This document shows positions 297-5,834 of a stretch of 64,000 bases of DNA, in pieces; the stretch's first letter is position 1; the number at the start of each line of letters is the position of its first letter. A program made the translations under genes and the position numbers. The notes beneath the pieces were generated by a model. That model saw only the letters and a list, made by a program, of their open reading frames with translations. It had not been told where the DNA came from and searched no databases. The DNA comes from Pseudomonadota bacterium (GTDB taxonomy: Bacteria; Pseudomonadota; Gammaproteobacteria; Steroidobacterales; Steroidobacteraceae): positions 1 to 64,000 of the forward strand of contig JANXOV010000144.1 of the NCBI GenBank assembly GCA_025357635.1, read 5' to 3'.

Positions 297-387
297 GGAG
301 AGATGGCCGAGTGGTCGAAGGCGCGCCCCTGCTAAGGGCGTAAGGGTCAAAAGCCCTTCGAGGGTTCGAATCCCTCTCTCTCCGCCA
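297..387 (+). tRNA. tRNA-Ser(GCT)
   Basis: GGAGAGATGGCCGAGTGGTCGAAGGCGCGCCCCTGCTAAGGGCG...GGTTCGAATCCCTCTCTCTCCGCCA: long variable arm, GCT anticodon, encoded CCA. Confidence 0.95.
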
Positions 388-389
388 AT
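364..389 (+). repeat. Putative att core, copy 1 (inside tRNA-Ser)
   Basis: 26-bp exact direct repeat of 3678-3703. Confidence 0.85.
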
Positions 390-533
390 ATTCTCTTATA
401 AATCTGAGCGTTAGCGCTTCTCCTCGAGCGCTACTGCCAAATTCAGTGGCGAATTCTGGAGAGAGCAAGAATCCCTCGCACGGAACAGGCGAAATCGTTC
501 CCGCTTTGTGAACTGCCTGGCGACTGCTGAACT

Positions 534-1361
534 TCAGCCACGGTTACGCGCCGTCCAATTGCCGCCTTGCTTCCATAGCAAATTGATCGCTGACGCATAG
601 CGAGCCTCGTCTTCGGGAACGAGTGCTTGATCATCGTGTGTTCCTGCAACGTGCAGTACGGTCGCAACACCGGCGTAACTGGCGACGACCGCATCTTGCA
701 TGTGTGGCCATGAGAGGCGATCAGCCGTCGAGATCACGAAAAGGGCTGGACAATGACTGCGGTGGTCCCACAACCGCGGACGAAATTCGGCTGGAATGCT
801 TGACTTGATCGCGTCTGTAATCGGTCTTGGCACCCACCGACTGACCCGTTGGTGCACCGTTGCCTGAACATCAATCAAGTTCTTCACTACCAGCGCGGAT
901 AGGGGGCGATGGGCCGCGAGATACATTGCCGCGGTCCCGCCGATGCTCTTGCCGTACACCCAAATTAGCGCGCCCGCGTAGCGGGCCGCCAAGAAATCGT
1001 AAGCCGCGACCACGCTGCCGAGATAGGTGGCGACGGTTACCGGACCGGAACTTCCCCCGAATCCCGGAGGATTCAGCGTCCAAGTCATGGACCGAATGCC
1101 CACTAGGCGGTTCGATGGATCTTGAGTAGCAAGTTCTGCGCGGCCCCGCCGGCCGAGTAGGCGCAGGATGACTAATTCGGGCGCACCTTCGTCGGCGAAT
1201 TCTCCGCCAGGACTCGGTTCGGCCCACAGTTGCACTGCTCCATGTCGATATGGGACCTGAACTTCCTGCTTCTCGCAGGGGATGCGTCGCGAACTGGGGG
1301 CCAGTAGCATCCTCGACCACAGACGCTGTCGCCATGCACCGGACGTTTCTGATCTGCCCAT
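534..1361 (-). CDS. Alpha/beta hydrolase
   Basis: GKSIGG nucleophile elbow, later STADRLS (Asp) and GTHDDQ (His) in triad-compatible order. Confidence 0.7.
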   Translation of the reverse strand: MGRSETSGAWRQRLWSRMLLAPSSRRIPCEKQEVQVPYRHGAVQLWAEPSPGGEFADEGAPELVILRLLGRRGRAELATQDPSNRLVGIRSMTWTLNPPGFGGSSGPVTVATYLGSVVAAYDFLAARYAGALIWVYGKSIGGTAAMYLAAHRPLSALVVKNLIDVQATVHQRVSRWVPRPITDAIKSSIPAEFRPRLWDHRSHCPALFVISTADRLSWPHMQDAVVASYAGVATVLHVAGTHDDQALVPEDEARYASAINLLWKQGGNWTARNRG

Positions 1362-1375
1362 CGGTCCACCGACCG

Positions 1376-2029
1376 TTACTGTTGGGCGAGCGTGGCGGTC
1401 GCTCGTTCAAGATTTGCGCGAGCCGTTGCCTCATAACGATCGTGAAAGGGCGCAAATCGGTAGATTTTAGGTCGCGCTTGGAAATACCTCAAAATCTGAC
1501 CGCGAGTGCGCGCAAAGAGCCACGATGGAACCCACCAGTACTCTCGCCGGACATTGCGTTCGAATTCGTCGTAGATTTCTGGCGCTTGCCCGAGGATTGA
1601 CAGATCAATGTCGACGATGAGGGCGGCATCGCCCATCAGTTGGTGGTCCCCTGGCGTCGTAGCCAGAATGAGGTTGCGAATTCGCGAGACAACTTCCGCG
1701 GGGGCGCCGCGCCTGGCAAGCAATCGTGCCGCCCAATTCGCGCTAAGGGCTTCATTGTCCCTGCGCCATGTTCGATATATCGCGTCATGAAACCATAGCG
1801 CGAACTCGACCTCAGCGGGATGCTCGGCCAAGTGCCGTGCGCCGTCGAGTTCACGGAGGCAAGCAGACAGGTGTTTGAGCGTGTGGTAACGACGCCCCCG
1901 CCTGGCCCACGCGCGAATGAGGTTACCGTGGTCCACTGCAAGGCACGAAATTCCCAACGCGACGCATGAGTCTGTCCATCGCTGCAGTGAGACTACGTCC
2001 ATCGATCCCGTCGTCACTCCCAACTCCAT
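1376..2029 (-). CDS. Predicted metal-dependent HD-superfamily phosphohydrolase (COG4339-like)
   Basis: RYHTLKHL...FALWFHDAIYRTWRRDNEALSA...ALIVDIDLSILG; start chosen at MELGV, overlapping the end of AbiEii. Confidence 0.75.
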   Translation of the reverse strand: MELGVTTGSMDVVSLQRWTDSCVALGISCLAVDHGNLIRAWARRGRRYHTLKHLSACLRELDGARHLAEHPAEVEFALWFHDAIYRTWRRDNEALSANWAARLLARRGAPAEVVSRIRNLILATTPGDHQLMGDAALIVDIDLSILGQAPEIYDEFERNVRREYWWVPSWLFARTRGQILRYFQARPKIYRFAPFHDRYEATARANLERATATLAQQ

Positions 2030-2907
2030 CGGGCCGGGACCCACGTGCCGTCCAGTCCGGCAAGGACAGGATCGAGGAACGCCGCCACTGATGCCGTAAG
2101 TTGTTCGAGACTTGTCCAAGGCAGTTCATTGTCGTGCGCCATCCGAAGATAAGGCGTTGACCAGGTCGTCGGCGGAAACGGCAGAGCGGTCGGCAGCGGA
2201 TGTGTAGCGCGGTGCTCGAACGTCTTTTCAAGTGCTTGTCGAAGTCGCTCGGCCTGCAGCGGGCGTATCGTTGCCAGTAGTGCGATATCAGGCAGATCCT
2301 TCAACCGCGTGTTCGGTCGCTCACGGGGCATCGTGTAGGCGTGCAGCTTCTCCGCGATGTGAGTCTCCACGGGATAGAGCCAAAGAACCGGCGATGCAAT
2401 GCCGGCAAAATCGAGCACGTCGTCGGCTGTGACGCTGTCGACTACTCCGATGATGGGATCACCGAAGGCAACGTCGACGCCGAATCGCTGTCCGTAGAGT
2501 TTTCCGGCCAGCCGGCACTCGGCGCGAAACCGCTGGCCCTCGTACTGCATGCCGTCGTTCTGGATCGTCGGGTGCTCCGCGTCGTGGCCAATCTCAAAGG
2601 CCATGAAGTCACCGAGATCCAGGCGGCCAGCCTCCTGAAGTTGGGCGAGGACCGTGTCGGAGGGGCTGACCAGCCGTAAGTCGACGTCTTTGGTGGTGCG
2701 GGCGCGCTCCAGCCGGAGTTCCAGCACAAGTCCGCCCTTGAGCATCACTGCGTCTCCGAACACGGCGGACACTCGCGCCAGAAATCTGTCGAAAACCAGT
2801 AGTTGACGCCGGCGTGCGAAATCGAGACCGTTTATCGATGCGGCCTTCATGCGTTGCTCCAGCGCCTGCTTGAACGCCGGCGGCGAGGCGTATGACCGAA
2901 TCGTCAT
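2014..2907 (-). CDS. Nucleotidyltransferase AbiEii/AbiGii-type toxin
   Basis: VMLKGGLVLELRLERARTTKDVDLRLVS (GG...DxD nucleotidyltransferase motif); 4-nt overlap with upstream AbiEi. Confidence 0.85.
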   Translation of the reverse strand: MTIRSYASPPAFKQALEQRMKAASINGLDFARRRQLLVFDRFLARVSAVFGDAVMLKGGLVLELRLERARTTKDVDLRLVSPSDTVLAQLQEAGRLDLGDFMAFEIGHDAEHPTIQNDGMQYEGQRFRAECRLAGKLYGQRFGVDVAFGDPIIGVVDSVTADDVLDFAGIASPVLWLYPVETHIAEKLHAYTMPRERPNTRLKDLPDIALLATIRPLQAERLRQALEKTFEHRATHPLPTALPFPPTTWSTPYLRMAHDNELPWTSLEQLTASVAAFLDPVLAGLDGTWVPARWSWE

Positions 2908-3488
2908 GGCTCGAGGCCGCCGTAGGGTTTGAGTGTCCTGCCGATGTGCTTAAGTTCGGACTTGGCTACCAGCCCGCGGCTGAGCGCCTGCTGTGCGGCC
3001 TGCCGAAGCAGGTCGGGCGTGATGCCAGATTCGGCGCAGTCCATGAGCGTGCAAAGCACAGCCGTCACAGGCACGGGCCCGGCCCAAGCGCGCTGTCGGG
3101 AGGGGACGTCCGCGAAATGTAGGGTCAGACCCTTGGGCACGCGCAGCCGTCGCGCCTGCCAGTTCGTCGGCAGGGTCAGGTGGATTTGCGCGGGCAGGAC
3201 ATCCGAAAGGGCGTGTAGCGACAGCGCCGTCTGGTGCGAAAAGACGCCCGCGGCGTCGGCCCAAAGCCACGCGGCGACAAGTTCCTCGTGCTCCCCAGGT
3301 GGAAAGTGAGTCAGGCGATAGATGCTGCGGCGAACGCGCGCGAGACGACCCGCTTTCTGGTGGTGCGCCAGCAGCGGGGCCGAATATCCGGCTGCCGCGG
3401 CTTGTCGGGTCGTGAAGAGCCCCTCCTGCGAAGCGGCTGTGTCGTAAAGCGCCTGCCAGGCGGGCTCAATAGCGCGCTTCGATGCCAT
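2904..3488 (-). CDS. Type IV toxin-antitoxin AbiEi-family antitoxin
   Basis: N-terminal winged-helix-like region (LFTTRQAAAAGYS...RLARVRRSIYRL) and SHQTALSLHALSDVLPAQIHLTLP; coupled to AbiEii. Confidence 0.85.
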   Translation of the reverse strand: MASKRAIEPAWQALYDTAASQEGLFTTRQAAAAGYSAPLLAHHQKAGRLARVRRSIYRLTHFPPGEHEELVAAWLWADAAGVFSHQTALSLHALSDVLPAQIHLTLPTNWQARRLRVPKGLTLHFADVPSRQRAWAGPVPVTAVLCTLMDCAESGITPDLLRQAAQQALSRGLVAKSELKHIGRTLKPYGGLEP

Positions 3489-3577
3489 GCACCAAAGTTA
3501 AATAGAATTTAAGGTTTGTGCAAGCGTCGAATGTGACCTTTCAATGCTATTTCGCGGGCTGCGACCTCCGCGGCTAT

Positions 3578-3597
3578 TGCCAAATCTACTGCCAAAT
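3578..3597 (+). repeat. Two TGCCAAAT repeats with 12-nt period (3578-3585, 3590-3597)
   Basis: TGCCAAATctacTGCCAAAT; a third copy within CTACTGCCAAAT at 431-442. Confidence 0.6.
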
Positions 3598-3677
3598 CGG
3601 GGGATTCGAGGGGGTCGCAGGGAACAAAATTATCTTTGAAGTCAGTAAGTTATTGATTCTGCAAGCGCCTCCGCCAA

Positions 3678-3703
3678 GTTCGAATCCCTCTCTCTCCGCC
3701 AAT
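3678..3703 (+). repeat. Putative att core, copy 2
   Basis: 26-bp exact direct repeat of 364-389; preceded at 3669-3677 by another CTCCGCCAA. Confidence 0.85.
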
Positions 3704-3727
3704 TCTTTCCCGTTCGATGTCATGGGC

Positions 3728-4491
3728 TTAGGTACAGGCGCCGCGTTCCTGGTGCCAGATCCAGTGCCAGACGCTGAATGACTTCGACGCTGACCGTTCC
3801 AGCGTACCCTCCGGAAGCCATCGCCGCACTAGTCGCCGGAACAGTCCACGACGGGGGCTTTGCACGTCGCCGACGGGCAGCTCCATCGCGCGACGGATTG
3901 CTGCCACGTCCGATTCGACGGCACCCTCGGCCCACGCGGCGTAGACCTCAAGCATGGTCCGCACGGTGTGACCGTGCTGCCGCGCCACCCACAGCGGGTT
4001 CTTGCCGAGCATCAGGTTCCAGCTCACGCTCGAGTGGCGCGCGCAGTAGGGCCGGCGCGGGCGGATGGGCAATCGCGCCAAGGTCTTCGCCCACCGTGCA
4101 CCCGACTCTTTGATTGAGCGGAACGGCGAGCCGTCTTCGGTGAAGAACAGGTGCGGATGCCGAATGGCGCCTTCCCGAATCAATCGCTCGCGCAGTGCGA
4201 GTTGTCGCCGGAGTACGGCGAGGGCGCGAGGGCATAGCTCGAAGACGCTATGGACGCCGGTCTTGGTCGTCGCTCTATCAACTCCCGCGACGCGCGCCTT
4301 GCTCACGCTCAGGGTACCGCGTGCTGCATCGAGATCCGACACCGTGAGCGCGATCTGCTCCGAGGGCCGGACCAGATTCCATTCAGGATCGTCCGGTAAG
4401 AGCTCAGCGTCACCGAGGCCATGTCGAGGCGGGCGACGCGCTCCATGGTCGGGGTGAGAGCGGGATATGGCGCGCGTTTAACATCTTTCAT
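3728..4491 (-). pseudogene. Tyrosine recombinase/phage integrase remnant (internal deletion and frameshift)
   Basis: N-terminal fragment MKDVKRAPYPALTPTMERVARLDMASVTLSSYRTILNGIW in one frame; catalytic fragment DPEWNLVRPSEQIALTVSDLDAARGTL...LARQHGHTVRTMLEVYAAW-like in another. Confidence 0.8.
3753..3772 (+). repeat. Two TGCCAGAY repeats with 12-nt period (3753-3760, 3765-3772)
   Basis: TGCCAGATccagTGCCAGAC, inside the 3' end of the integrase remnant. Confidence 0.55.
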
Positions 4492-4551
4492 GTCAGCGTG
4501 CAAAATCGTGTTGGTAGTCGCGGCGCCGAAGTGCCATTGGATAGGGGTCAG

Positions 4552-4586
4552 TTGAAGCAGGACTGATAAAGGACTATATTCAGTCC
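4552..4586 (+). promoter_or_regulatory. Sigma70-like promoter with overlapping dyad operator for the Phd/ParE module
   Basis: TTGAAG-N17-TATATT (4552-4580) with palindrome GGACT-ATATTC-AGTCC (4571-4586) over the -10 and an extra GGACT half-site at 4560-4564. Confidence 0.5.
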
Positions 4587-4606
4587 GATACAATCCGGGA
4601 GTCCCC

Positions 4607-4885
4607 ATGCGGTATTCGACCCAGATCCGACCGATCAGCTACCTTAAGGCCAATGCCGCCGAGGTGCTACAGGAACTGACAGACCAGCGGCAGCCTATGG
4701 TCATTACCCAGAACGGGGAAGCCAAGGCTGTAATCCAGGACGTGGCCACGTACGAGCAGACGCAGGAGACCTTGGCGCTGTTGAAGATCCTGGCGCTGGG
4801 CAACCAGCAGGTCTCGCAGGGCAGGGTCAAGCCGCTGGCCGATGTCGCCAAGCGAGTGCGGGCCAAGCTGGCAACGGAAGACTGA
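4607..4885 (+). CDS. Type II antitoxin, Phd/YefM family
   Basis: IRPISYLKANAAEVLQELTDQRQPMVITQNGEAKAVIQDVATYEQ; overlaps start of toxin. Confidence 0.9.
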   Translation: MRYSTQIRPISYLKANAAEVLQELTDQRQPMVITQNGEAKAVIQDVATYEQTQETLALLKILALGNQQVSQGRVKPLADVAKRVRAKLATED

Positions 4886-5214
4886 TGCGCTTCGAAGTCG
4901 TCCTCACCGAAGACGCGGAGCGCGACCTGGAAGGCATCGTTACCCATATTGCGACGCACGATTCGCCCCAGAGTGCCGAGCATGTCCTCGGTCGAATTCT
5001 GGAGATCGCTGAAAGTCTCTCGGCTGAGCCGACGCGCGGATCGCAGCCAAAGGAACTGCGCGGCCTCGGTGATCAGGAGTACCGGCAGGTATTCTTCAAG
5101 CCCTACCGGTTTATCTATCGGGTCGTTGGGGAGCGGGTGGCCATTTACCTGATCGCCGATGGGCGACGCGATATGCAATCCCTGTTGGCGCGCCGACTGC
5201 TCGGTGGCGGTTAG
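4885..5214 (+). CDS. Type II toxin, RelE/ParE family
   Basis: FEVVLTEDAERDLEGIVTHIA...RQVFFKPYRFIYRVVGERVAIYLIADGRRDMQSLLARRLLG. Confidence 0.9.
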   Translation: MRFEVVLTEDAERDLEGIVTHIATHDSPQSAEHVLGRILEIAESLSAEPTRGSQPKELRGLGDQEYRQVFFKPYRFIYRVVGERVAIYLIADGRRDMQSLLARRLLGGG

Positions 5215-5225
5215 CCCGTCGTCTG

Positions 5226-5834
5226 GTGCGGGAGCGACTGTGGCCGTGCGCGAACGCAGTGATTTCTCTCTGCTGTTCCCAGGTTGTTCGCAGCCGGCTT
5301 GGAATCACTGGCCGGCCGTCCGCCGCGTCCGAACCCACGACGCGCCTCGGCAACTGGTATGTGCATCTGGTGCGCCTTGGGCCCCAGCAACTCGTCCTCG
5401 CCACCAGCGAACGTTCATTGCTGACTGTCATTCTCCCGGCGCGTGAGCTGCGGGCCACGATCGAAGGAAATCTCCGGATCGGCGCCGGCATCACGTTCGA
5501 GCAGCTCGTGGCGCAGGCCAGTTCCGACATCCGTGAAACCTTCGAAGGCTTCGTGATGCGCGGGGCACCGCACGAGGTCTCCGAAGCAGTCTACGCCGCC
5601 GCGCGCGACGTGCATCTGCCGGCGCTGCGCCGCTTGTATCAGGACTTCTTCGCGCGCAACATCTCTCCCGGCAGTACCGCCGGGGTGCCCAGACTGGTGA
5701 TGCCGGCGGGACTGACCAGAGAGGGTCTTCCCGTGGGCATCGAATTCGACGGACTCGCCGGCAGGGCCCGCGCGCTGTTGCAGCTGGGTGAGGCGGCGGA
5801 GCGCGTGTTGGGAAAGCTCGCTCCGCCCAACTGA
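5226..5834 (+). pseudogene. Chimeric ORF: DUF6933-like N-terminal segment fused to an amidase C-terminal remnant
   Basis: TTRLGNWYVHLVRLGPQQLVLATSERSLLTVILPA (DUF6933-like), then TFEQLVAQASSDIRETFEGFVMRGAPHEVSEAVYAAARDVHLPALRRLYQDFFAR/NISPGSTAGVPRLVMPAGLTREGLPVGIEFDG (amidase C-terminus, apparent internal deletion). Confidence 0.6.

Follow-up and report, generated by a model that had tools for sequence, protein, structure and literature searches.

Near the left end of a 64,000-nucleotide stretch from a member of the Steroidobacteraceae (contig JANXOV010000144.1 of assembly GCA_025357635.1, positions 1 to 64,000; ‘the window’ in what follows) lies a 3.3-kb att-flanked island, element A, which carries genes for an AbiEi-AbiEii toxin-antitoxin pair, a predicted HD phosphohydrolase and a predicted alpha/beta hydrolase. 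Element A is likely to be an integrase-less island resembling the cis-mobilizable elements (CIMEs), with AbiE as its core and the HD and hydrolase genes as lineage-specific cargo, joined to a decayed element B. It would have lost its recombinase whilst keeping both att repeats and its putative recombinase arm sites, and its right end would have become joined to element B, a more recently acquired member of the same tRNA-Ser family.

The window opens with the end of csrA at the contig edge, followed by a tRNA-Ser(GCU) gene in which element A is inserted. The features of the element are as follows.

297-387, plus strand: tRNA-Ser(GCU) gene (ARAGORN, Rfam), the integration target, whose 3' end is the first repeat
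364-389, plus strand: left att repeat, an exact 26-nt repeat made up of the final 24 nt of the tRNA gene and AT
390-470: left arm, weakly alignable with the 3' ends of integrase genes in related elements; its one TGCCAAAT copy, at 435, is a putative arm-type site for the recombinase
534-1361, minus strand: alpha/beta hydrolase, 275 amino acids (aa), with a putative triad S139, D214 and H242 (motif, fold model)
1376-2029, minus strand: HD-superfamily phosphohydrolase, 217 aa (invariant residues, AlphaFold model)
2014-2907, minus strand: AbiEii nucleotidyltransferase toxin, 297 aa, motifs present (Pfam PF08843, E 1e-30; PADLOC, E 1e-86)
2904-3488, minus strand: AbiEi antitoxin and helix-turn-helix (HTH) regulator, 194 aa (Pfam PF13338, E 3e-12; PADLOC, E 3e-68)
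3488-3522: inverted repeat with 16-nt arms at the AbiEi start, a putative AbiEi operator/promoter; palindrome conserved in 8 AbiE loci
3574-3677, plus strand: right arm, with two TGCCAAAT copies (3578, 3590), 12 nt apart
3678-3703, plus strand: right att repeat, an exact 26-nt copy, which closes element A (364-3703)

Element A is a real att-flanked element in a tRNA-Ser gene. The original prediction for this DNA had placed an exact 26-bp repeat at both ends, which was confirmed; it did not mention that the tRNA gene ends within the first copy. The 24-nt core of the repeat, which is present at the tRNA site in relatives too, occurs twice in the window, with no further copy there even at three mismatches and none in 100 shuffles. 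Two more copies of the repeat, differing by one and two bases, are present in the whole genome. The repeats enclose four genes, all on the minus strand and spaced as had been described: AbiEi and AbiEii overlap by 4 nt, AbiEii and HD overlap by 16 nt, and a 14-nt gap separates HD from the hydrolase. The open reading frame (ORF) list and Pfam gave no integration or transfer genes inside the element, only the four cargo genes. The catalytic motifs of all four proteins are intact, again as predicted, and the description of an att-flanked mini-element with an AbiE core and one probable operon is borne out. Its description as ‘sealed’ holds in part: similarity to the related locus L013 ends at the second repeat, but no integrase lies within the element, and a decayed one is present shortly beyond that repeat (3728-4608).

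Related tRNA-Ser elements carry a tyrosine recombinase, whereas element A does not. Over the 130 nt at 3574-3703, element A has 80-88% identity to the right ends of tRNA-Ser elements in four genomes (G468, G396, G050 and G477), and the right arm could also be aligned in G473 and G475. The TGCCAAAT octamer occurs only four times in the 64-kb window, and the left and right arms of element A account for three of these occurrences. The element in G473 has the order att, integrase, AbiEii (80% identical, split by an insertion sequence, IS), AbiEi (73%), att, without HD or hydrolase; an IS-type transposase gene lies within this AbiEii gene (locus L117, 3559-6063). Element A may have arisen from an integrative element by gene loss: the G473 recombinase stands at the equivalent place, and the left arm of A has weak similarity to integrase 3' ends. 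The HD and hydrolase genes appear to occupy the slot behind AbiEii in which this related element holds its integrase, and a related recombinase may mobilise element A in trans.

Judging by gene order across relatives, the contents of the slot behind AbiEii turn over, and the HD and hydrolase genes are one lineage-specific filling of it, since AbiE relatives lack HD and hydrolase there and HD homologues sit away from AbiE pairs. Three genomes (G416, G418 and G444) have an AbiE pair, with AbiEii about 70% identical, followed by a TOTE archaeo-eukaryotic primase (AEP) primase-helicase gene, and a fourth (G412), cut by a contig end, starts in the same way. A viral contig with a 61% identical AbiEii has neither HD nor hydrolase. 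The loci concerned (L118 in G412, L119 in G416, L120 in G444 and L121 in G418) may represent an AbiE-TOTE operon found in two genera; the primase-helicase gene is divided between two ORFs in L121 and truncated by the contig end in L118.

The search for HD genes beside AbiE covered 218 genomes of the family, 291 of the class, 20 genome-collection loci, five annotated plasmid or phage regions and 24 viral contigs. Outside the window genome (G000) and G475, which hold the same element, neither HD nor hydrolase was found beside any other AbiE pair examined. Conversely, tblastn with the window AbiE proteins, mostly within 1.5 kb, a search that a highly divergent AbiE, or one further away, could escape, revealed no AbiE pair next to the HD homologues of 12 other genomes of the family, 2 of the order and 18 of the class, or at about 18 further genome-collection loci and in the 24 viral contigs. 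The sole near case is in viral contig L167, where an orphan 63-aa ORF (2040-2231) has 64% identity to the N-terminal 44 residues of AbiEi; this stub is 1.8 kb from the HD gene, on the opposite strand, and is without AbiEii. Two records, L157 (CAKLQH020000004.1, labelled phage) and L153 (NZ_CP133752.1, labelled plasmid), contain ordinary chromosomal genes (rpoH and thiG, and pyk and eutH, respectively) and may be mislabelled or chimeric.

The one other genome with this four-gene set is G475 (locus L013), from another genus of the same family, where it lies at the same tRNA, flanked by the same repeats, with 83.6% DNA identity. The alignment stops at window position 3701, inside the second repeat, and the DNA beyond is different. 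Element A has probably passed between the G000 and G475 lineages as a unit after their split, because the host genes recA (84% aa identity, dS 0.67) and alaS (66%, dS 1.10) are more diverged than the element genes (81-86% aa identity, dS 0.29-0.54); the comparison uses two host genes and one relative, and both genomes are drafts, G475 being a metagenome bin. The same divergence of the host genes disfavours plain vertical inheritance. All four genes have a dN/dS of 0.15-0.27 between the two genomes, so that purifying selection is supported for the HD and hydrolase genes also, and the idea that these two are neutral debris was rejected on these low values, despite the truncated hydrolase of G475. 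The 16-nt overlap of AbiEii and HD is likewise conserved there.

The AbiEi gene lies directly upstream of AbiEii, and the palindrome at its start is the strongest promoter feature of element A; a consensus promoter scan of the element found promoter-like sites in numbers no greater than in shuffles. The four genes probably share one AbiEi-controlled promoter, from which they would be co-transcribed, and the cargo genes are probably under AbiEi control, because this strongest feature is the palindrome conserved amongst AbiE loci. In studied systems, AbiEi represses its own synthesis via promoter palindromes, and AbiE can provide phage protection or stabilise its host element (PMC7725324, PMC11062541). 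The AbiEii-type toxins that have been studied stop growth, either by extending tRNA 3' ends with added nucleotides or by upsetting tRNA levels (PMC7725324, PMC10435456). By analogy, element A would express a single operon from the palindromic promoter, probably repressed by AbiEi at the putative operator, and its AbiEii would be a tRNA-acting nucleotidyltransferase toxin, with AbiE giving abortive infection, island stabilisation or both. The HD protein and the hydrolase would be co-expressed with AbiE as passengers, with substrates of their own.

Neither of these two proteins matched a family above the curated cut-off in Pfam or NCBIfam. The HD protein can be placed in the HD superfamily by its metal-binding residues and predicted HD fold. 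Residues H49, H53, H81-D82, D140 and D142 are invariant in 46 aligned homologues, and in the AlphaFold model (predicted local distance difference test, pLDDT, 94.7) the nearest structures are HD-fold phosphodiesterases, although these matches are weak (best E 0.019, TM about 0.5-0.6); sequence searches of the PDB with the protein gave nothing useful. Its homologues are mostly solitary amongst unrelated neighbours. The best relative (66%), in G004, is at a contig end, and AbiEii was not found elsewhere in the G004 genome. One homologue is annotated ‘NMDAR2C subunit’, a name often given in error to proteins of COG4339, to which the HD protein may belong; searching the literature for COG4339 gave no result. 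An archaeal bin (L018) has the HD family fused to a cytidylyltransferase-like domain (CTP_transf_like), and L022 and L023 have ORFs of similar length. In a Verrucomicrobiales bin (L019) the HD gene has a cytidylyltransferase-like (CTP_transf_like) gene on one side and the gene for an RlaP RNA-repair polymerase on the other.

The hydrolase can be assigned to the alpha/beta hydrolase superfamily by its nucleophile elbow (GKSIGG, at S139), its putative triad and its predicted fold. The model matches solved alpha/beta hydrolases with E about 1e-11, at a pLDDT of only 65. Amongst the 291 class and 218 family genomes, only G475 has a relative above about 30% identity, and no match was found in plasmids. 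In G475, codon 171 is TGA instead of CAA, and because this in-frame stop precedes the Asp and His of the triad, the hydrolase looks dispensable there. A link to RTX toxins was considered and dropped: the family profile matched an RTX alpha/beta hydrolase domain in the PDB, but the window protein alone gave only weak matches to monoacylglycerol lipases, and for this reason no hydrolase function is claimed.

Directly to the right of element A is the second and decayed integrative element, B (3704-5490), which consists of a truncated tyrosine recombinase gene and an intact-looking Phd-ParE pair.

3728-4608, minus strand: decayed tyrosine recombinase of element B, N-terminal part lost
4607-5214, plus strand: Phd/YefM antitoxin and ParE-type toxin pair (Pfam), the remaining cargo of element B; pair also in G477 and G050

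The C-terminal part of the recombinase has about 98% DNA identity to the integrase of G477, which is intact (477 aa, with arm-binding and catalytic domains). In G477, element B is directly at the tRNA-Ser, with no A, and after it come a distantly related AbiEi-AbiEii pair of its own and Phd-ParE. Compared with G477, element B in the window has a deletion of about 2.5 kb that removed the recombinase N-terminus and its AbiE, whilst Phd-ParE was kept. Element B probably arrived later than A, since B is far closer to its G477 counterpart than A is to that of G475; this accords with the accretion model (PMC5704250). AbiE genes or remnants lie within a few kb of the one 24-bp site in G000, G475, G473, G396, G050, G477 and G026, and their recurrence at this tRNA-Ser in seven genomes suggests that the att core is a defence hotspot in the family. 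In G420, an integrase-less 2.3-kb mini-element (L126, 282-2624) is bounded on both sides by the same tRNA-Ser repeat; its cargo consists of one gene for an HTH protein and one for a DUF6036 nucleotidyltransferase, which make up an AbiE-like pair from another family.

The original prediction went further and proposed that an extended AbiE module may include the HD protein and the hydrolase as functional parts. On such a reading the two would work with AbiEii; for example, the HD protein could trim or remove the nucleotides that AbiEii adds to tRNA ends, with the hydrolase as a second effector or a reset. The conserved gene overlap, the one probable operon, the purifying selection on both genes and the probable transfer of all four genes as one unit would all suit such a module, as would the HD family's fusion to, or position beside, nucleotidyltransferases in distant genomes (L018, L019). 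However, the neighbourhood comparison that the prediction had put forward as its check found HD and hydrolase beside AbiE in no other genome except G475, in the same element. No AbiE pair adjoins the HD homologues at about 50 other cellular loci or in 24 viral contigs (the L167 stub aside), close AbiE relatives persist without either gene and the hydrolase is truncated in the sole relative. With no recurrence by AbiE, a slot filled otherwise and a stop codon in the G475 hydrolase, the proposal is unsupported and we regard it as rather unlikely. Its most specific form, in which the HD protein acts on the AbiEii product, removing or maturing tRNA 3'-end nucleotides as a reversible tRNA-end switch, has only a slim chance of being right; it is kept alive at that level because HD relatives adjoin or are fused to nucleotidyltransferases in distant genomes. 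If it were true, these links would reflect a general pairing.

The solitary habit of most HD homologues, amongst unrelated neighbours, and the selection on both genes would also fit a second, independent system, in which the two genes form their own defence or metabolic pair and have only the island and its promoter in common with AbiE. This too is unlikely: no second locus with an HD-hydrolase pair was found, and the stop codon in the G475 hydrolase leaves HD alone there. It could also be argued that the repeats do not bound a single element, the stretch being instead the eroded tRNA-proximal end of a larger island with the second repeat as the left end of B. An integrase remnant does come right after that repeat, and B is also eroded, but the G475 stretch ends at the same repeat with different DNA after it, the arm before the repeat matches the true right ends of other elements, and G477 has B directly at the tRNA without A, making this very improbable.

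Several points weigh against the interpretation favoured here, an integrase-less island with an AbiE core and passenger cargo. Selection on the HD and hydrolase genes and the AbiEii-HD overlap would fit a functional link to AbiE too, and the four-gene form is present in two genomes only, the relative being a metagenome bin. The replacement of an integrase by cargo is argued from G473 and the weak left-arm similarity, and mobilisation of A by a related recombinase is a proposal.

CIMEs, and the tandem accretion of integrative and conjugative elements (ICEs) or integrative mobilizable elements (IMEs) with CIMEs, have been reviewed (PMC5704250). Element A is flanked by attL and attR, seen as the exact repeat and the conserved right arm, and itself carries no genes for integration or transfer. 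Like a CIME, it keeps both att sites, lacks recombinase and transfer genes and is joined to a second element sharing an att site. It differs in its very small size (3.3 kb), in belonging to a tRNA-Ser family in Gammaproteobacteria-like genomes and in its mobilisation, which is putative. The integrase-bearing and integrase-less elements at this one tRNA form a natural set for testing mobilisation in trans.

The core resembles the AbiE type IV toxin-antitoxin systems (relatives of MenAT) in its recognition by Pfam and PADLOC, its 4-nt gene overlap and its promoter palindrome, with activity predicted; unlike these, element A has two further genes in the same probable operon. The AbiE of ICESsuHN105 stabilises its ICE (PMC11062541), and there as here AbiE is inside an integrative element and has a palindromic operator (putative in element A), but element A has no visible conjugation genes and adds the HD and hydrolase cargo. 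The AbiE-TOTE loci of G416, G418 and G444 share with it an AbiEii of about 70% identity, a similar palindrome and a further gene directly behind AbiEii; there the partner is a primase-helicase, and no tRNA-Ser att core was present in the stretches examined. Within one close AbiE family, the slot behind AbiEii is thus filled by a TOTE primase-helicase, by an integrase or by HD and hydrolase. Should AbiE be a stabilising core that regulates itself, with the slot serving as a port for cargo, this arrangement would provide a simple route to new defence cargo.

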